Positions 5,125 to 52,257 of a stretch of 64,000 nt of DNA are shown here, piece after piece; the stretch's first letter is position 1, and every line of letters starts with the position of its first letter. The translations under genes and the position numbers were made by a program. The DNA is from Pseudomonas sp. A-1 (GTDB taxonomy: Bacteria; Pseudomonadota; Gammaproteobacteria; Pseudomonadales; Pseudomonadaceae). The notes below the pieces were generated by a model. The model was not told the origin of the DNA and made no database searches. It worked only from the letters and a program-made list of their open reading frames with translations. The stretch spans positions 1-64,000 of the forward strand of contig NZ_SSTC01000016.1 in the NCBI RefSeq assembly GCF_004801855.1, written 5' to 3'.

Positions 5125-6264
5125 ATGAGCAACCACTGCGACATCGCCATCGTCGGCGCCGGCATCCTCGGCCTGGCCCACGCCTATGCCGCCGCCCGTC
5201 GCGGCCTCAAGGTGCGCGTGTTCGAGCGCAGCGAGCGCGCCCTCGGCGCCTCGGTGCGCAACTTCGGCATGGGCCTGATCACCGGCCAGGCGCCCGGTCC
5301 GATGCTAGAGCTGGCCCGCGCCAGCCGGCCGCTCTGGGCCGGCTGGGCGCAGGCCGCGGGCTTCGCGGTCAAGCGCGAGGGCTCGTTGCTGTTCGCCCGC
5401 AGCGAAGCCGAGGAACGGCTGCTGGAAGCCTTCTGCGCCGGCCGCGCCCGCGCGCACGGCTACCGCGTCGAGCTGCTCGGCCGCGAGGCACTGGGCAGCA
5501 TCTACGCCGGCCGCTTCCGCCACCACCGCGCCGCCCTGCACGGCTTCGACGACCAGCAGCTGTACTCGCGCGAGGCGCTCCCGGCGCTGGCCGCCTGGCT
5601 GGCTCGCGAGCACGGCGTGGAGTTCCACTTCGCCACCCTGGTGCGCGACGTCGAGCCGGGCCTGCTGCACACCACTGCCGGGCGCTTCCGCGCAGGGCAG
5701 ATCCTGGTCTGCTCCGGCCACGACTACCTGACCCTGCTGGCCGAGCAGCTGCGCGCGTTGGAGCCGCAGGTCTGCCGACTGCAGATGCTGCGCGTCGCCC
5801 CGCAGCAGGCGCTGGACCTGCAGCACGCGGTGCTCACCGGCCTGTCCGGCGTGCACTACGGCGCCTTCGCCGACCTGCCGGAGGCCGAGGCGGTGCGCGC
5901 GCAGATCCGCCGCGAGTGCCCGGCGCTGGAGCGCTTCGGCATCCACCTGCTGGTCAGCCCGACGCCGAGTGGCGAGCTGATCATCGGCGACTCCCACGAC
6001 TACGGCCAGGACGCCTCGCCGTTCAACGCCGAGGAAGTCGACAAGCTGCTGCTGCAGCTCGCCGAGCACACCCTGGCCACCCCGCTGCGGGCGATCGAGC
6101 GCTGGCAGGGCGTGTACGGCGGGCGCGGGCCGGCGCCGTTCACGGTCACCAAAGCCGCCGAGGGCGTCACCGCTGTGCTGATGCATACGGGCCTGGGCAT
6201 GAGCGTCGGCCCGGCGCTGGGCGAGCGGACCATCGCGGCGCTGCTCGGCGAGCCGGCCGGCTGA
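5125..6264 (+). CDS. FAD-dependent amine oxidoreductase of phosphonate clusters (PbfD/HpnW-like)
   Basis: A 379-residue DAO-family flavoprotein. The N-terminus carries the dinucleotide-binding motif IVGAGILGLAHA (residues 9-20), and the C-terminal end has the family's GPALGERTIAALL helix. GAGG precedes the ATG, 10 bases after phnS. Proteins of this type recur next to aminoethylphosphonate transport genes; members have been reported to oxidise N-methylated or free aminoethylphosphonate to phosphonoacetaldehyde. Here it is the only catabolic enzyme in the visible cluster: no phnW, phnX, phnY or phnA is present, so the next step must be encoded elsewhere. Oxidase rather than dehydrogenase activity is family knowledge, not shown by the sequence. 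Confidence 0.75.
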   Translation: MSNHCDIAIVGAGILGLAHAYAAARRGLKVRVFERSERALGASVRNFGMGLITGQAPGPMLELARASRPLWAGWAQAAGFAVKREGSLLFARSEAEERLLEAFCAGRARAHGYRVELLGREALGSIYAGRFRHHRAALHGFDDQQLYSREALPALAAWLAREHGVEFHFATLVRDVEPGLLHTTAGRFRAGQILVCSGHDYLTLLAEQLRALEPQVCRLQMLRVAPQQALDLQHAVLTGLSGVHYGAFADLPEAEAVRAQIRRECPALERFGIHLLVSPTPSGELIIGDSHDYGQDASPFNAEEVDKLLLQLAEHTLATPLRAIERWQGVYGGRGPAPFTVTKAAEGVTAVLMHTGLGMSVGPALGERTIAALLGEPAG

Positions 6265-6310
6265 CGGGAGGAGTCAAGGCCAGCCGACACGCACCATAAC
6301 GACGCAAGCC

Positions 6311-6325
6311 GCATCAAAGCGGTGC
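6311..6325. promoter_or_regulatory. Candidate NtrC binding site
   Basis: GCAT-N7-GTGC differs from the NtrC consensus GCAC-N7-GTGC at one base. It lies about 65-80 bp upstream of the sigma-54 -24 element, the usual zone for an enhancer site. A weaker half site (GCAC) lies at 6291. NtrC control of nitrate assimilation is established in related bacteria. Confidence 0.5.
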
Positions 6326-6389
6326 CGATCCATGCGCTCGATTAGGCACTCCCCGGCGCAAACTCCACCAATAGCCGCATCAGAGAATC

Positions 6390-6405
6390 TGGCACGTTAT
6401 CTGCT
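6390..6405 (+). promoter_or_regulatory. Sigma-54 promoter of the nirB operon
   Basis: TGGCACG-TTAT-CTGCT matches the -24/-12 consensus TGGCACG-N4-TTGCW at all but one position. The invariant GG (6391-6392) and GC (6403-6404) are separated by exactly 10 bases. Transcription would start near 6416, giving a leader of about 140 nt before nirB. Confidence 0.75.
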
Positions 6406-6435
6406 TTAGAGAATTCGACAATTCATCGAGCGTAA

Positions 6436-6474
6436 CCCTCAACGGCGAGGGGCGCGCTCCCCGAGCGATTCGGG
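6436..6474 (+). promoter_or_regulatory. Two-hairpin ANTAR (NasT-type) antitermination element in nirB leader RNA
   Basis: Hairpin 1 is CCCTC-AACGGC-GAGGG (6436-6451), a 6-base loop with A at position 1 and G at position 4. Hairpin 2 is CCCG-AGCGATT-CGGG (6460-6474), whose loop also has A1 and G4. Two tandem hairpins with A1/G4 loops just before an intrinsic terminator are the hallmark of ANTAR-protein target RNA. NasT uses such elements in nitrate-assimilation leaders. The hairpin 2 loop is 7 bases, or 5 if the A-T pair forms, so its fit is slightly imperfect. nasS and nasT are not in the window and would act in trans. Confidence 0.7.
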
Positions 6475-6482
6475 ATCCGGAC

Positions 6483-6525
6483 AAAGGCGTCCTGCTGGCA
6501 ACGGCAGGACGCCTTTTTTGTTTTT
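6483..6525 (+). terminator. Leader (attenuator) terminator upstream of nirB
   Basis: A perfect 13-bp stem (6483-6495 with 6504-6516) with an 8-base loop is followed by TTTTTTGTTTTT. It sits after the sigma-54 start and before nirB, so it would block the operon unless antitermination occurs. The adjacent ANTAR-type element fits this. Confidence 0.85.
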
Positions 6526-6557
6526 CGCAGGTCGGTTTCCGCGATGGGAGAGAAACC

Positions 6558-9008
6558 ATGAACAAGCTCAAGCTGGTGATGGTCGGCAATGGCATGGCCG
6601 GGGTGCGGACCCTGGAGGAGCTGCTCAAGCTCGCGCCGGACATGTACGACATCACCGTGTTCGGCGCCGAGCCGCACCCCAACTACAACCGCATCCTGCT
6701 CTCCCCGGTGCTGGCCGGCGAACAGACCTTCGAGGAGATCATTCTCAACGACCTCGACTGGTACAGGGACAACGGCATCGACCTGCGCCTGGGCTGCAAG
6801 GTGGTCGACATCGACCGCCACGCTCACAAGGTGATCGCCGAGGACGGCAGCGAACTGCACTACGACCGCCTGCTCATCGCCACCGGCTCCAACCCGTTCA
6901 TCCTGCCGATCCCCGGCAAGGACCTGCAGGGCGTGATCGGCTACCGCGACATCGCCGACACCGTGACCATGATGGAAACCGCCAAGACCCACAGGCACGC
7001 CGTGGTGATCGGCGGCGGCCTGCTCGGCCTGGAAGCCGCCAACGGTCTGAAGCTGCGCGGCATGGACGTCACCGTGGTGCACCTCGGCGACTGGCTGCTC
7101 GAGCGCCAGCTCGACAGGACCGCCGGCCAGCTGCTGCAGAGCGCCCTGGAGGCGCGCGGCATCCAGTTCCGCCTGAGCACCCAGACCGCCGCCCTGCTCG
7201 ACGACGGCGACGGCCGCGTGTGCGCCGCCCAGTTCGCCAACGGCGACGTGATCCCCGCCGACCTGGTGGTGATGGCCGCCGGCATCCGCCCCAACACCGA
7301 GCTGGCCGAGCGCGCCGGCCTGCCGTGCAACCGCGGCATCCTGGTCGACGACACCCTGCAGACCTACGACCCGCGCATCTACTCGGTCGGCGAGTGCGCC
7401 AACCACCGCGGCATCGCCTACGGCCTGGTCGCCCCGCTGTTCGAGCAGGCCAAGGTGTGCGCCAACCACCTGGCCCAGCTCGGCTTCGCCCGCTACGAAG
7501 GCTCGGTGACCTCGACCAAGCTCAAGGTCACCGGCATCGACCTGTTCTCCGCCGGCGACTTCATGGGCGCGGACGGCACCGAGACCATCACCCTCTCCGA
7601 CCCCATCGGCGGCGTGTACAAGAAGCTGGTGATCAGGGACGACGTGCTGGTCGGCGCCTGCCTGTACGGCGACACCGCCGACGGCAGCTGGTACTTCCGG
7701 CAGATCCGCGAGAGCCACAACGTCGCCGAGATCCGCGACCACCTGATGTTCGGTGAAAATGCATTGGGCGACGCCGGCCACCAGGGCCAGGACAAGGCCA
7801 CGGCGATGCCCGACGACATGGAAGTGTGCGGCTGCAACGGCGTGTGCAAGGGCACCATCGTCAAGGCCATCCAGGAGCACGGCCTGTTCAGCCTCGACGA
7901 GGTCAAGAAGCACACCAAGGCGGCCAGCTCCTGCGGCTCGTGCACCGGCCTGGTCGAGCAGATCCTGATCAACACCGTCGGCGGCGCCGCCGACGTCAAG
8001 CCCAAGAGCGAGAAACCGGTGTGCGGCTGCACCGACTACAACCATGGCCAGGTGCGCAAGGTCATCCGCGAGCAGCACCTGACCTCGCTGGCCGATACCA
8101 TGGCCTTCATGGAGTGGCGCACCCCCAACGGCTGCGCCACCTGCCGCCCGGCGCTCAACTACTACCTGATCTCCACCTGGCCGGGCGAGGCCAAGGACGA
8201 TCCGCAGTCGCGCCTGATCAACGAGCGCTCGCACGCCAACATCCAGAAGGACGGCACCTACTCGGTGGTGCCGCGCATGTGGGGCGGAGTGACCAACCCG
8301 TCCGAGCTGCGCCGCATCGCCGACGTCGCCGACAAGTACAGCATCCCGATGGTCAAGGTCACCGGCGGCCAGCGCATCGACCTGCTCGGGGTGAAGAAGG
8401 AAGACCTGCCGGGGGTGTGGAAGGACCTCGACATGCCTTCCGGCCACGCCTACGGCAAGTCCATCCGCACCGTGAAGACCTGCGTGGGCTCCGAGTTCTG
8501 CCGCTTCGGCACGCAGAACTCGACGCAGATGGGCATCGACCTGGAGCACGCGCTGTTCGGCATGTGGTCGCCGCACAAGGTCAAGCTGGCGGTCTCCGGC
8601 TGCCCGCGCAACTGCGCCGAGTCGGGCATCAAGGACGTCGGCATCATCGGCGTGGATTCCGGCTGGGAGCTGTACGTCGGCGGCAACGGCGGCATCAAGA
8701 CCGAGGCCGGCGAGTTCTTCGTCAAGGTGAAGACTGCCGAGGAGGTCATGGAATACAGCCTGGCCTTCCTCCAGCTGTACCGCGAGGAGGCGTTCTACCT
8801 GGAGCGCACCGTGCACTACATGCACCGCGTCGGCCTCGAGCACATCAAGAAGATCGTCCTGGAGGACGAGGCCCGCCGCAAGGAACTGCACCAGCGCCTG
8901 CTGTTCGCCCTGACCTTCGAACAGGACCCGTGGAAGCAGCAGATCGAAACCCCGGCGCTGAAGAAGGAGTTCGAGCGCATCCCGGTCAGGGTGATGGAAC
9001 CCGCCTGA
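6558..9008 (+). CDS. nirB: Assimilatory nitrite reductase [NAD(P)H], large subunit
   Basis: An 816-residue cytoplasmic enzyme reducing nitrite to ammonium with NAD(P)H. Domain order: FAD/NAD(P)-binding pyridine nucleotide-disulphide reductase (1-about 390), first BFD-type [2Fe-2S] domain (CGCNGVCKG ... CGSC, about 423-460), second BFD-like segment (CGCTDYNHG ... CATC, about 490-530), then ferredoxin-like and siroheme/[4Fe-4S] domains. The siroheme cluster cysteines are visible in TCVGSEFC (about 641-647) and SGCPRNC (about 681-685). GGGAGAG precedes ATG 6558. Siroheme comes from the CobA pathway three genes downstream. Control is predicted from the sigma-54 promoter and leader. Confidence 0.95.
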   Translation: MNKLKLVMVGNGMAGVRTLEELLKLAPDMYDITVFGAEPHPNYNRILLSPVLAGEQTFEEIILNDLDWYRDNGIDLRLGCKVVDIDRHAHKVIAEDGSELHYDRLLIATGSNPFILPIPGKDLQGVIGYRDIADTVTMMETAKTHRHAVVIGGGLLGLEAANGLKLRGMDVTVVHLGDWLLERQLDRTAGQLLQSALEARGIQFRLSTQTAALLDDGDGRVCAAQFANGDVIPADLVVMAAGIRPNTELAERAGLPCNRGILVDDTLQTYDPRIYSVGECANHRGIAYGLVAPLFEQAKVCANHLAQLGFARYEGSVTSTKLKVTGIDLFSAGDFMGADGTETITLSDPIGGVYKKLVIRDDVLVGACLYGDTADGSWYFRQIRESHNVAEIRDHLMFGENALGDAGHQGQDKATAMPDDMEVCGCNGVCKGTIVKAIQEHGLFSLDEVKKHTKAASSCGSCTGLVEQILINTVGGAADVKPKSEKPVCGCTDYNHGQVRKVIREQHLTSLADTMAFMEWRTPNGCATCRPALNYYLISTWPGEAKDDPQSRLINERSHANIQKDGTYSVVPRMWGGVTNPSELRRIADVADKYSIPMVKVTGGQRIDLLGVKKEDLPGVWKDLDMPSGHAYGKSIRTVKTCVGSEFCRFGTQNSTQMGIDLEHALFGMWSPHKVKLAVSGCPRNCAESGIKDVGIIGVDSGWELYVGGNGGIKTEAGEFFVKVKTAEEVMEYSLAFLQLYREEAFYLERTVHYMHRVGLEHIKKIVLEDEARRKELHQRLLFALTFEQDPWKQQIETPALKKEFERIPVRVMEPA

Positions 9009-9123
9009 CCCCGCCTGCCAGGGGCGGGTCCTGCCGGTCGGCGTCCAGGAAAGCGCCGCACCGGCAGGACCGGCACCTGCCACCCACACCGCGAGCGACC
9101 GAACGAGATTGAGGAGAAACGAC

Positions 9124-9441
9124 ATGAACTGGCTGGATATCTGTGCCCTGGAAGAGATCAACGTGCTCGGCGCGCGCATCGTCGCCGGACCCAAGGGCGA
9201 CATCGCGCTGTTCAGGACTTCCGCAGATGAAGTGTTCGCCATTGACGACCGCTGCCCGCACAAGGGCGGCCCGCTCTCCCAGGGGCTGATCTACGGCAAG
9301 CGCGTCGCCTGCCCGCTGCACAACTGGCAGATCGACCTGGAAAGCGGCGAGGCGCTGGAGCCGGACGTCGGCTGCAGCCACAAGTACCCGGTCAAGGTCG
9401 AGGGCGGCCGCGTGCTGCTGGCGCTGAAGGACTGCGCCTGA
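9124..9441 (+). CDS. nirD: Nitrite reductase small subunit, Rieske type
   Basis: A 105-residue partner of NirB. It has a Rieske [2Fe-2S] fold with the C-X-H ... C-X2-H ligands visible in DDRCPHKGGPL and RVACPLHNWQ. I chose ATG 9124 because GAGGAGA lies 6 bases upstream; an in-frame TTG 15 bases earlier lacks this spacing. It lies 115 bases after nirB with no terminator between, and an inverted repeat fills the gap to the next gene. In the NirBD family this subunit assists electron flow and stability. Confidence 0.93.
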   Translation: MNWLDICALEEINVLGARIVAGPKGDIALFRTSADEVFAIDDRCPHKGGPLSQGLIYGKRVACPLHNWQIDLESGEALEPDVGCSHKYPVKVEGGRVLLALKDCA

Positions 9442-9503: not shown

Positions 9504-9528
9504 CTTGAACCACGACGGAGCGACAGCC

Positions 9529-12231
9529 ATGACCCGGCCGACCCAGACCACCGCCTCCACCTGCTGCTACTGCGGCGTCGGCTGCGGCGTGCTGATCGAG
9601 CACGACGGCGAGCGGATCACCGGCGTACAGGGCGACCCGGCGCACCCGGCCAACTACGGCCGCCTGTGCAGCAAGGGCTCGACCCTGCACCTGACCGGCG
9701 ACCTGGCCGCCCGCGCGCTGTACCCCGAGCTGCGCCTGGGCAAGGACCTGGCCCGCGCCCGCACCGACTGGGACAGCGCCCTCGACCACGCCGCCCACGT
9801 GTTCGCCGAGACCATCCGCGAGCACGGCCCGGACAGCGTGGCCTTCTACATCTCCGGCCAGCTGCTCACCGAGGACTACTACGCCTTCAACAAGCTGGCT
9901 AGAGCATTGGTGGGCACCAACAATATCGACAGCAACTCGCGGCTGTGCATGTCCTCGGCGGTGGTCGGCTACAAGCGCAGCCTGGGCGCCGACGCGCCGC
10001 CCTGCTCCTACGAGGACATCGAGCAGAGCGATTGCCTGCTGATCGCCGGCAGCAACATGGCCTACGCCCATCCGGTGCTGTTCCGTCGCCTGGAAGCGGC
10101 CAAGGCCGCCCGCCCGGAGATGAAGATCATCGTGGTCGACCCGCGGCGCACCGACACCTGCGAGCTGGCCGACCTGCACCTGGCGATCCTGCCCGGCACC
10201 GACGTGGCGCTGTGCCACGGCATCCTGCACATCCTGCTCTGGGAAGGCTGGATCGACCGCGCCTGGATCGACGCCCACACCGAAGGCTTCGACGCGCTGA
10301 AGAAGCTGGTGCGCGACTACACCCCGGCGGCGGTGGCCGACATCTGCGGCATCAGCATCGACAATCTGCAACTGTGCGCCGAACTGATCGGTCAGGCGCC
10401 GTCCTTCCTGTCGCTGTGGTGCATGGGCCTCAACCAGTCGAGCAGCGGCAGCGCCAAGAACAGCGCGCTGATCAACCTGCACCTGGCCACCGGACAGATC
10501 GGCAAGCCCGGCGCCGGGCCCTTCTCGCTGACCGGCCAGCCCAACGCCATGGGCGGGCGCGAGACCGGCAGCCTGGCCAACCTGCTGCCCGGCCACCGCG
10601 AGGCCGGCAACGCCGAGCACCGCGCCGAGGTCGCCGGCTACTGGGGCGTCGACGCCCTGCCGGAGTCGACCGGGCTGAGCGCCATCGAGCTGTTCGAGGC
10701 GGTGCGGGTCGGCAAGGTCAAGGCGCTGTGGATCGCCTGCACCAATCCGGCGCAGTCGCTGCCCGACCAGCAGAAGATCCACGAGGCCCTCAGCAACTGC
10801 CCGTTCGTGGTGGTGCAGGAGGCCTACGCCACCACCGAGACCTGCCGCTACGCCGACCTGCTGCTGCCCGCCGCCGGCTGGGGCGAGAAGGAAGGCTCGG
10901 TGACCAACTCCGAGCGCCGCGTCAGCCACGTACGCCGCGCCGTGGCGGCCGCCGGCGAAGCCCGGCCGGACTGGGCGATCACCTGCGACTTCGCCCGCCG
11001 CCTGGAACGTCAGCTGCGCCCCGGCCAGCCGAGCCTGTTCGACTTCGCCGGCCCGGCCGCGCTGTTCGAGGAGTACAAGCTGCTCACCGCCGGCCGCGAC
11101 CTCGACCTGTCCGGCCTCAGCCATGCGCTGCTCGACGACCTCGGCCCGCAGCAGTGGCCGTTCCCGGCCGGCGCGCTGAGCGGCACGCCGCGCCTGTACG
11201 CCGACGGCGTATTCCCCACCGCCAGTGGCCGCGCCCGCTTCCACGCCGACCCGTTCCGCGCGCCGCAGGAGAAGCGCGAGGCGCGCTATCCGCTGACCCT
11301 CAACACCGGCCGCCTGCGCGACCAGTGGCACGGCATGAGCCGCACCGGCACCGTCGCCCAGCTGTTCGGCCACGTCGAGGAGGCCGCGCTCAGCCTGCAC
11401 CCGGACGAACTGCGCCGCCGGCGCCTGGCCAGCGGCGACCTGGTCAGGCTGCGCAGCCGCCGCGGCAGCCTGATCCTGCCGGTACAGGCCGACGACAGCG
11501 TGCGTCCCGGCCAGGCCTTCCTGCCGATGCACTGGGGCGACCGTTTCCTCAAGGGCCTGGGCATCAACGTGCTGACCCTGCCGGCCTACGACCCGCTGTC
11601 CAAGCAGCCGGAACTCAAGCACGCCGGCGTCGAGGCGGAGAAGGTCGAGCTGCCCTGGCAGCTGTTCGCCCTGGTCGAGGGCGACGTGCAGCAGCGCTTC
11701 ACCGCGCTGCGCCCGCTGCTGGACGACTTCGCCTACGCCAGCCTGACCCTCACCGGCCGCGAGCGCCCGGCCCTCTTGGTCAAGGCCGCCAGCGCGGTGG
11801 CGCCCGACGCCGCCCTGCTGGCCCGGATCGACGCCCTGCTCGGCCTCGACCAGGGTCCGGTGCTGGCCTACGACGACCCGCGGCGCACCGTCGGCAAGCG
11901 CGTGCGCATCGAGGACGGGCGCATCGTCGCCATCCGCCTGGCCGGCGAGACCGCCGCGCGCGACTGGCTGAAGGCGCTGTGGGAAGACGGCCAGGCCGAC
12001 GCCGAACTGCGCCGCTGGCTGCTCGCCCCGCTGAGCACCCCGCCGGGCAACGCCGGGGCGTGCAAGAGCAAGACGCTGTGCAGCTGCATGAACGTCAGCG
12101 AGGCGGCGATCCGCGCCGGCATCGAGCGCGGCCTCGACCTCGACGACCTCAAGCAGGAACTCAAGTGCGGCACCAGCTGCGGCTCCTGCGTGCCGGAAAT
12201 CAAGCGCCTGCTGGCGAAGGCCCCGGCCTGA
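9529..12231 (+). CDS. nasC: Assimilatory nitrate reductase catalytic subunit with C-terminal [2Fe-2S] domain
   Basis: A 900-residue molybdopterin oxidoreductase that reduces nitrate to nitrite in the cytoplasm. The [4Fe-4S] ligands are Cys12, Cys15, Cys19 and Cys47 (CX2CX3CX27C). The molybdopterin and dinucleotide-binding domains fill the middle, and a BFD-like [2Fe-2S] domain closes the protein (CSCMNV about 850, CGTSCGSC about 883). The TTG-started extension from 9505 begins inside the inverted repeat, so ATG 9529 with GGAG upstream is preferred. It needs Mo-bis-MGD, linking it to the modABC operon 4 kb away. Equivalent subunits are called nasA, nasB or narB in other species; nasC follows P. 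aeruginosa use. Confidence 0.92.
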   Translation: MTRPTQTTASTCCYCGVGCGVLIEHDGERITGVQGDPAHPANYGRLCSKGSTLHLTGDLAARALYPELRLGKDLARARTDWDSALDHAAHVFAETIREHGPDSVAFYISGQLLTEDYYAFNKLARALVGTNNIDSNSRLCMSSAVVGYKRSLGADAPPCSYEDIEQSDCLLIAGSNMAYAHPVLFRRLEAAKAARPEMKIIVVDPRRTDTCELADLHLAILPGTDVALCHGILHILLWEGWIDRAWIDAHTEGFDALKKLVRDYTPAAVADICGISIDNLQLCAELIGQAPSFLSLWCMGLNQSSSGSAKNSALINLHLATGQIGKPGAGPFSLTGQPNAMGGRETGSLANLLPGHREAGNAEHRAEVAGYWGVDALPESTGLSAIELFEAVRVGKVKALWIACTNPAQSLPDQQKIHEALSNCPFVVVQEAYATTETCRYADLLLPAAGWGEKEGSVTNSERRVSHVRRAVAAAGEARPDWAITCDFARRLERQLRPGQPSLFDFAGPAALFEEYKLLTAGRDLDLSGLSHALLDDLGPQQWPFPAGALSGTPRLYADGVFPTASGRARFHADPFRAPQEKREARYPLTLNTGRLRDQWHGMSRTGTVAQLFGHVEEAALSLHPDELRRRRLASGDLVRLRSRRGSLILPVQADDSVRPGQAFLPMHWGDRFLKGLGINVLTLPAYDPLSKQPELKHAGVEAEKVELPWQLFALVEGDVQQRFTALRPLLDDFAYASLTLTGRERPALLVKAASAVAPDAALLARIDALLGLDQGPVLAYDDPRRTVGKRVRIEDGRIVAIRLAGETAARDWLKALWEDGQADAELRRWLLAPLSTPPGNAGACKSKTLCSCMNVSEAAIRAGIERGLDLDDLKQELKCGTSCGSCVPEIKRLLAKAPA

Positions 12232-12290: not shown

Positions 12291-12339
12291 AAGAGTCGCT
12301 GAGCCCCCGCCGACGCGAAATGCCGGCACCGAAACGAAC

Positions 12340-12396
12340 CGTAGGGTGCGCCACGCGCACCACAAACCCGACGGGGTGCGCACTGCGCACCCTACG
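12340..12396. repeat. Inverted-repeat element, copy 3 (REP-like)
   Basis: A 57-bp palindrome in the same orientation as copy 2, 49 bases downstream of it. The central loop (ACAAACCCGACG) nearly matches that of copy 2 (GCAACCCCGACG), suggesting a tandem pair. It lies 61 bases before cobA. Confidence 0.85.
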
Positions 12397-12457
12397 AAGA
12401 GCGAATGCCCGGCCGGTGCCAGCAGCGCCGACCAGCGACACGAGAGAGGTGTTAGAG

Positions 12458-13222
12458 ATGAGCGCAAAAGTCTGGCTGATCGGTGCCGGCCCGGGCGATC
12501 CGGAACTGCTGACCCTCAAGGCCGTGCGCGCCTTGGGCGAGGCAGAGGTGGTGCTGATCGACGACCTGGTCAACCCGGCGGTGCTCGCACACTGCCCGCA
12601 GGCCCGGGTGATCGGCGTCGGCAAGCGCGGCGGCTGCCGCTCCACCCCGCAGGAGTTCATCCACCGCCTGATGCTGCGCTACGCCCGCCAGGGCAAGTGC
12701 GTGGCGCGCCTGAAGGGCGGCGACCCGTGCATCTTCGGCCGCGGCAGCGAGGAGGCCGACTGGCTGGCCGAGCGCGGCGTGGCCAGCGAGATCGTCAACG
12801 GCATCACCGCGGGCCTGGCAGGCGCCACCCAGTGCGGCATCCCGCTGACCCTGCGCGGTGTCGCCCGTGGCGTGACCCTGGTCACCGCCCACACCCAGGA
12901 CGACAGCAGCCTCAACTGGCCGGCGCTAGCCCAGGGCGGCACCACCCTGGTGGTGTACATGGGCGTGGCCAAGCTGGCCGACATCCGCGACGGTCTGCTG
13001 GCCGGCGGCATGCCCGCCGCCATGCCGGTGGCGATGATCGAGAACGCCTCGCTGCCGCGGCAGCGCGAGTGCCGCAGCAGCCTCGGCGCCATGCGGGAGG
13101 ACGCCGCCGCCTTCCGCCTGCAGAGCCCGGCGATCCTGGTGATCGGCGAGGTGGCAGCAGCCCGTCAGAATGCCGAGCAGACCGAGCCGAGCGACCTGCT
13201 CGCGGCGGTCGGCATGCGCTGA
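12458..13222 (+). CDS. cobA: Uroporphyrinogen-III C-methyltransferase (SUMT)
   Basis: A 254-residue SAM-dependent enzyme that methylates uroporphyrinogen III twice to give precorrin-2, the precursor of siroheme and cobalamin. Visible family motifs are the N-terminal GAGPGDPELLTLKA, the central RLKGGDPCIFGRGSEE and the ITAGLAGA segment. Length matches stand-alone CobA; the dehydrogenase/chelatase half found in CysG is absent. I chose ATG 12458, which gives the canonical N-terminus, over an upstream ATG at 12320 that would run through repeat copy 3. Its place behind the nitrite/nitrate reductase genes fits supply of siroheme to NirB. Confidence 0.93.
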   Translation: MSAKVWLIGAGPGDPELLTLKAVRALGEAEVVLIDDLVNPAVLAHCPQARVIGVGKRGGCRSTPQEFIHRLMLRYARQGKCVARLKGGDPCIFGRGSEEADWLAERGVASEIVNGITAGLAGATQCGIPLTLRGVARGVTLVTAHTQDDSSLNWPALAQGGTTLVVYMGVAKLADIRDGLLAGGMPAAMPVAMIENASLPRQRECRSSLGAMREDAAAFRLQSPAILVIGEVAAARQNAEQTEPSDLLAAVGMR

Positions 13223-52036: not shown

Positions 52037-52221
52037 GCTAGGTCACCCTCGGTAAGGGGACACCATCTGGCGTGGAGACCGCCGTGGCTTAAAGTCCAGA
52101 GCAGCGACTTCGGCAAAGCCACTTGGGATCCCGCTGATGGTCCGGGCTCCAGCCCGGTTGCCCCTGCTGGTCGTTTTTTAATCAAGAACCGCGGCTTTGT
52201 GGGCTACGGCTGGTTCTGCAA

Positions 52222-52257
52222 CTGCGCGGAGTGCCGGCAAGCCGCCACTCCGCGCAG
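52222..52257. other. Hairpin between sdhB and sucA
   Basis: A perfect 12-bp stem (CTGCGCGGAGTG / CACTCCGCGCAG) with a 12-base loop, 31 bases past the sdhB stop. On the minus strand no T run follows, so complete termination of sdh transcripts is unlikely. The 252-bp gap also holds CCGGGCT-CC-AGCCCGG near 52143. Confidence 0.55.

Follow-up and report, generated by a model that had tools for sequence, protein, structure and literature searches.

The window, the whole 64,000-nt stretch of Pseudomonas sp. A-1 DNA that was analysed (contig NZ_SSTC01000016.1, positions 1 to 64,000), contains a leader region situated between a TIGR03364-type gene (5125-6264) and nirB, with nirD, a nitrate reductase gene and cobA following downstream in the same direction. 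The features of the locus are:

5125-6264, + strand: FAD-dependent oxidoreductase gene of the TIGR03364 family, immediately 5' of the leader
6291-6305, + strand: upstream NtrC-like site GCACCATAACGACGC, matching six of eight core bases, exactly 20 bp from the site at 6311
6311-6325, + strand: downstream NtrC-like site GCATCAAAGCGGTGC, matching seven of eight core bases
6390-6404, + strand: sigma54 promoter TGGCACGTTATCTGC (-24/-12), its TGGCA and TGC unchanged throughout the 43-leader alignment
6417-6525, + strand: leader RNA, P11/NalA homologue (RF00625 match), with a predicted start about 12 nt after the -12 GC
6428-6459, + strand: ANTAR hairpin P1, stems 6428-6432/6455-6459 and 6436-6440/6447-6451, loop AACGGC at 6441-6446
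6460-6474, + strand: middle hairpin H2, CCCG-AGCGATT-CGGG, its pairs kept in 43 aligned leaders that were chosen for having H2
6479-6492, + strand: ANTAR hairpin P2, the putative antiterminator, GGAC-AAAGGC-GTCC, hexaloop with A1 and G4, overlapping the terminator
6486-6519, + strand: intrinsic terminator, arms 6486-6495 and 6504-6513, T tract 6514-6519
6546-6550, + strand: GGGAG, likely ribosome site of nirB
6558-9008, + strand: nirB, nitrite reductase large subunit (TIGR02374, 937.5 bits, cut-off 578)
9109-9441, + strand: nirD, nitrite reductase small subunit, start codon tentative (TIGR02378, 105.5 bits, cut-off 74.7)
9505-12231, + strand: molybdopterin assimilatory nitrate reductase of nasA/nasC type, start tentative, named from operon context
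12320-13222, + strand: cobA, uroporphyrinogen-III methyltransferase (TIGR01469, 298.3 bits, cut-off 185, residues 50-282)

In the family profile search the nitrate reductase scores 509.7 bits as NasA and 460.3 bits as NasC, both below their cut-offs, and the top-scoring model, formate dehydrogenase alpha (532.4 bits), also stays below its own. The true start of cobA is probably near 12458. The nirB-nirD-nitrate reductase-cobA order of the window is of the type given in the title of Romeo 2012, nirBD-PA1779-cobA.

Comparison with covariance models, proposed in an earlier sequence-only reading of this DNA, places positions 6378-6513 in Rfam family RF00625 (P11) over the full model length, with 84.7 bits (E 1.3e-16) against a gathering score of 70, and the element is therefore already represented in Rfam. 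It is the sole P11 match above the cut-off in the genome. Sub-gathering matches within the leader to ctRNA (21.2 bits) and to P11 on the opposite strand (17.5 bits) were rejected as identities, as was the narK RNA family RF03032 (20.2 bits, gathering 43.2). The available text of a review citing Nie 2024 (PMC12830290) describes NalA as a nirBD leader with a sigma54 start, NtrC, a terminator, and NasT binding and antitermination. The window feature is already known, being a further copy of the published P11/NalA switch: it shares the site before nirB, the sigma54 start, the hairpins, the terminator, the presence of NasT in the genome and the operon content, and differs in a 7-nt H2 loop particular to the genus of the window. 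Both Rfam models, RF00625 and RF03032, start in the untranscribed -24/-12 element, and neither draws P2 as a hairpin. Elsewhere in the window, the curated cis-regulatory family sucA-II RNA (RF01758) is matched at 52040-52257 on the - strand with 127.3 bits.

The promoter comprises a sigma54 element and a pair of NtrC-like sites. The TGGCACG-N4-CTGC motif with GG-10-GC spacing recognized in the sequence-only reading is present at 6390-6404, and its gap of ten bases between GG and GC, as expected of a sigma54 promoter, is conserved. That reading also reported GCAT-N7-GTGC, which lies at 6311-6325, and missed the second site at 6291-6305. Both sites were called with an NtrC consensus that we take to be GCAC-N7-GTGC-like; with it, the region upstream of -24 holds the paired sites expected of an NtrC enhancer. 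Pairs with at least 6/8 core bases in each site and exactly 20 bp between them occur in 61 of 89 upstream regions of leaders, against 1.8 expected from shuffles, and are absent from 28. The best match reaches 7 or 8 of 8 in 77/89 upstream regions against 408/1780 shuffled ones, a background at which a single GCAT-N7-GTGC match (at least 7/8) is too common to serve as evidence. The distinctive promoter feature is the conserved 20-bp pair rather than a single NtrC-like site.

P1 forms an inner hairpin, CCCTC-AACGGC-GAGGG (6436-6451), with A1 and G4 in its hexaloop, stacked on a further 5-bp stem. Conservation was assessed in a hand-picked alignment of 43 leaders, consisting of the window leader and 42 of 88 fetched P11 hits; near-duplicates and weak hits were excluded, as were leaders in which a simple H2 was missing and some further ones. 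The P1 stems contain covarying pairs, with 78.6% and 89.6% of cells paired, while the invariant positions comprise the sigma54 core, the TCAA-G--GA pattern within P1, the greater part of GGACAAAGGCGUCC and portions of the terminator. The loops are conserved among relatives in this alignment, as the sequence-only reading had required. Across P1, H2 and P2 jointly, 91.2% of cells pair, with a covariation score of 0.213 against 0.110 in shuffles, and shifting the partner by one base lowers pairing to 54-58%; the number of pairs changed on both sides (8 against 6.1 in shuffles, reached by 54/500) is a weak measure taken alone. P2 is near-invariant among nirB leaders, three of its four pairs never varying in the alignment. 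Because it hardly varies there, its covariation support comes solely from the leaders of other genes, across which the stem appears as GGAC/GUCC, CGAC/GUCG, TGAC/GUCA and AGGC/GCCU. Among 134 leaders of different genes, 117 preserve its outermost pair (on average 71.8 and at most 84 in shuffles); these leaders are motif-selected, 14 of 148 rows having been dropped for P2, and some loci are counted twice. The region 6400-6570 folds better than 200/200 dinucleotide shuffles (z -4.67), and 10 of 2000 shuffles of 6416-6513 contain two hairpins with A1/G4 hexaloops and stems of 4 bp or more.

The terminator, with its 10 perfect base pairs (6486-6495/6504-6513) followed by T6, is as the sequence-only reading described it. 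Positions 6486-6492 are common to P2, where they form the loop end and 3' arm, and to the terminator, where they form the first seven bases; the two structures are therefore mutually exclusive. In predicted folds, nascent RNA ending at P2 forms P1, H2 and P2, with P2 pair probabilities of 0.97-0.99, and extension of the leader to the T run yields the terminator in place of P2. With these shared bases and a predicted fold that switches with length, the second hairpin excludes the terminator, as expected of an ANTAR target.

The regulator was sought with PF03861, which returned a single ANTAR protein in the genome, NasT, with NasS beside it, as a look-up suggested by the sequence-only reading had envisaged. 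NasT has 194 aa with receiver and ANTAR domains and adjoins a 403-aa NasS, and it provides the cognate ANTAR protein that an ANTAR target calls for. Among 148 family genomes, P11 (E <= 0.01) and NasT (E <= 1e-20) are both present in 101 and both absent in 38, with P11 only in 4 and NasT only in 5. The four P11-only genomes (G104, G124, G046, G039; L171-L174) each carry one NIT-ANTAR protein of the NasR kind. Their nirB leaders keep P2; three are without an A1/G4 P1, and L065 has only a 3-bp P1. A rule that P1 is altered in NasR-type genomes was not drawn, given that G104 and G124 have a normal P1 in another leader and that some leaders in NasT genomes are likewise without a clear P1.

The same architecture recurs within the genome. 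The sigma54 and P1 pattern with correct spacing is found in nine places, five of which were judged real by P1, P2 and a terminator; these precede nirB, nrtA, narK, nasS and a second nirB-like gene. With the sigma54 spacing one base short, six matches are obtained and none of the five leaders is recovered. The leader before nasST contains a sigma54 element, P1, P2 and a terminator (L094 ~9115-9000, - strand, paired with the entry G000:C216:18044-18114), and those before nrtA and the narK-family transporter gene lie at L094 ~4015-3885 (- strand) and G000:C216:8841-8910, nrtA (nitrate-type ABC transporter binding protein) being named from context. The leader before the second nirB-like gene (L102, G000:C11:29749-29812, - strand) has a long spacer. 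That gene adjoins ABC ATPase genes of the branched-chain-amino-acid type (Liv). The predicted fold switch is similar in outline in these leaders, with P2 pair probabilities of 0.57-0.98 for nrtA, 0.82-0.94 for nasS and 0.76-0.93 for the nirB-like gene. The P2 of the narK leader is weak by itself (0.17-0.19), and protein binding would therefore need to contribute more there.

Among the 148 family genomes, 100 contain the sigma54-P1-P2 pattern, with 207 matches in all against a single one for the pattern read backwards, and at least one of the listed matches (G131:C1:5432047) resembles a coding repeat. Thirty typed loci precede nasS (13), narK (8), nirB (4), a nasA-type nitrate reductase gene (4) and cobA (1); the nasA loci L167 and L168 and the cobA locus L169 were typed by family search, and L162 and L170 from translations. 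In genus g6 (L053, L169) a P11-type leader stands before cobA instead of nirB. RF03032 matches the genome's own narK leader with 73.2 bits and its nasS leader with 45.4 bits, both above gathering (43.2), reaches 30.7 bits, below gathering, on the nrtA leader, and gives no match to the nirB-like leader (L102). The narK RNA shares with the window leader the sigma54 element, P1 with AACGGC, and a conserved GACAAAG-CGUC that forms P2, and differs in having a short linker and no H2. At E 0.001 it is found in 6 of 115 sampled genomes of the order, including two that do not belong to the family; by this criterion the architecture is therefore not widespread. The terms 'narK motif' and 'narK RNA' are absent from the literature matches listed.

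The sequence-only reading proposed two A1/G4 hairpins as the ANTAR pair, of which the first (6436-6451) has the hexaloop and the second (6460-6474, H2) has a loop of 7 nt, or 5 nt if A-U closes, and so is not a canonical hexaloop; it overlooked GGAC-AAAGGC-GUCC at 6479-6492. ANTAR targets require a pair of hairpins with stems of 3 bp or more and hexaloops bearing A1 and G4; P1 and P2 fit this description, and H2 does not. NasT acting on P1 and H2 and blocking the terminator from afar is a very unlikely arrangement. It draws on the 43 aligned leaders, in which the H2 loops carry A1 in at least 90% and G4 in all and the H2 pairs hold in 43/43, but these leaders were selected for H2. Against it also stand the 7-nt loop, whose extra base recurs in each of the six leaders of the genus in the alignment, that of the window among them; the absence of H2 in some leaders, such as L053, L054 and L075; and the lack of overlap between H2 and the terminator. 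Furthermore, the P1-P2 linker is 7-12 nt in narK, nasA and nrtA leaders, leaving no room for H2, and in nasS leaders has a median of 9 nt (range 3-28). Since H2 is missing in some leaders and the linkers elsewhere are too short, the ANTAR pair is most likely P1 and P2, and H2 is probably a spacer rather than an antiterminator. Counting against the P1 and P2 pairing, the gap in P11-type leaders (inner stem to stem, median 27 nt, filled by the outer P1 stem and H2) exceeds the 5-12 nt of eut, unless it is bridged by H2 and the outer P1 stem, and the A1 and G4 in the H2 loops of the alignment mean that H2 may have some role. The P1 motif was not seen in 6 of 87 P11-type leaders having P2.

The leader, an orthologue of P11/NalA, is very probably a switch of the nirBD-nitrate reductase-cobA operon that nitrogen scarcity starts and nitrate licenses. 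Bound at the two sites 20 bp apart, phosphorylated NtrC would activate sigma54 polymerase at 6390-6404. When nitrate is absent, NasS would hold NasT, the terminator (6486-6519) would form, and an RNA of about 100 nt (P11) would be released. When nitrate is present, NasS would free NasT, and we infer that its ANTAR dimer would bind the nascent RNA at two hexaloops, that of P1 (6441-6446) and that of P2 (6483-6488); P2 held shut would hide 6486-6492 from the terminator and let polymerase read into nirB. The elements, their conservation, the overlap of P2 with the terminator and the presence of NasS and NasT in the genome are observed directly. Relatives supply the model for NtrC/sigma54 dependence, nitrate release of NasT from NasS and NasT antitermination, which would apply here by analogy. 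The available text on P. stutzeri A1501 reports strongly reduced nasS, nasT and other nas genes in an ntrC mutant (PMC8443478), and that on P. putida reports that deletion of nasT leaves nitrate no longer usable (PMC7261876). The two-tier control put forward in the sequence-only reading, an NtrC/sigma54 start and NasS/NasT read-through, is supported and agrees with the review's account of the nirBD leader as excerpted (PMC12830290). With the antiterminator placed at 6479-6492, the switch can be tested cleanly by mutation.

This reading resembles other ANTAR systems. The dual-hairpin model, as given in the accessible part of PMC3369931, specifies hexaloops with A1 and G4 and a linker of 5-12 nt in eut; the eut, nasF and amiE targets covered there share with the window two A1/G4 hexaloop hairpins, one of them at the terminator, and antitermination, whereas the window has an extra hairpin between the pair and NasT with NasS as regulator. 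The Klebsiella nasF leader undergoes nitrate-responsive ANTAR antitermination by NasR according to the available portions of PMC5424462 and PMC3795266, in common with the behavior proposed here; NasR carries its own NIT sensor domain, whereas the window genome has NasS/NasT.

That P11 acts mainly as a free trans-acting sRNA, with the terminator as a gene end rather than an attenuator, is very unlikely. Rfam classes P11 as a gene, and the excerpted text of PMC12080996 presents P. aeruginosa P11 as an sRNA with two effects, regulation of the nitrogen assimilation operon and an action on worms; yet P11 is the 5' leader of an operon with an antiterminator overlapping its terminator, and the same layout precedes narK, nrtA and nasS. 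The sRNA and leader roles are mutually compatible. Chance stacking of common motifs, to which the frequency of single 7/8 NtrC-like matches (408/1780 shuffles) might point, is practically negligible and is ruled out by conservation, as seen in the Rfam E value of 1.3e-16 and the 207 matches against 1 over 148 genomes.

The genes of the regulator itself, nasST, seem to carry this switch too. Read by eye, 30 nasS loci divide into 18 whose P1 and P2 hexaloops both bear A1/G4, 4 whose P2 loop carries G1, 1 degenerate case and 7 that lack a leader. A strict rule (sigma54, P1, P2, terminator) applied to the best 80 of 516 nasS loci was passed by 33/80, against 0/80 reversed and 0/800 shuffled. A sigma54-like match is seen in all 47 failing loci among these 80, though that of L232 is doubtful; 26 of the 47 retain one or more A1/G4 hairpins, and the other 21 have no such hairpin. 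Seventeen of these 21 hairpin-less loci are titled Stutzerimonas, and the remaining ones include two species that belong to the genus of the window, P. linyingensis and P. sagittaria. The only passing locus titled Stutzerimonas, L182 (G038), belongs to the window's genus, and the Azotobacter vinelandii CA locus (L201) also passes.

The simplest reading of the nasST leaders is positive feedback by NasT. Judged by these sequences, NasT probably controls its own operon: nasST in A. vinelandii and many Pseudomonas would be sigma54-started, led by P1, P2 and a terminator, and subject to nitrate-dependent positive feedback, the Stutzerimonas loci examined would keep the promoter without the leader, and the P11 'sRNA' and the 'narK RNA' would form one NasT regulon (nirB, narK, nrtA, nasA, cobA, nasST). 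This self-control is the part of the picture that may be new; titles and abstract openings found by the literature search, which did not reach the full texts of the main papers, hold no report of nasST autoregulation. If true, it would turn nitrate assimilation into a decision that feedback reinforces and that may be switch-like, and treating P11 and narK RNA as one architecture would offer a simple way of listing the NasT regulon of a genome.

Two NasT copies occur in G011, G070, G078, G086, G093, G100, G135, G140 and G145, all of genus g11.
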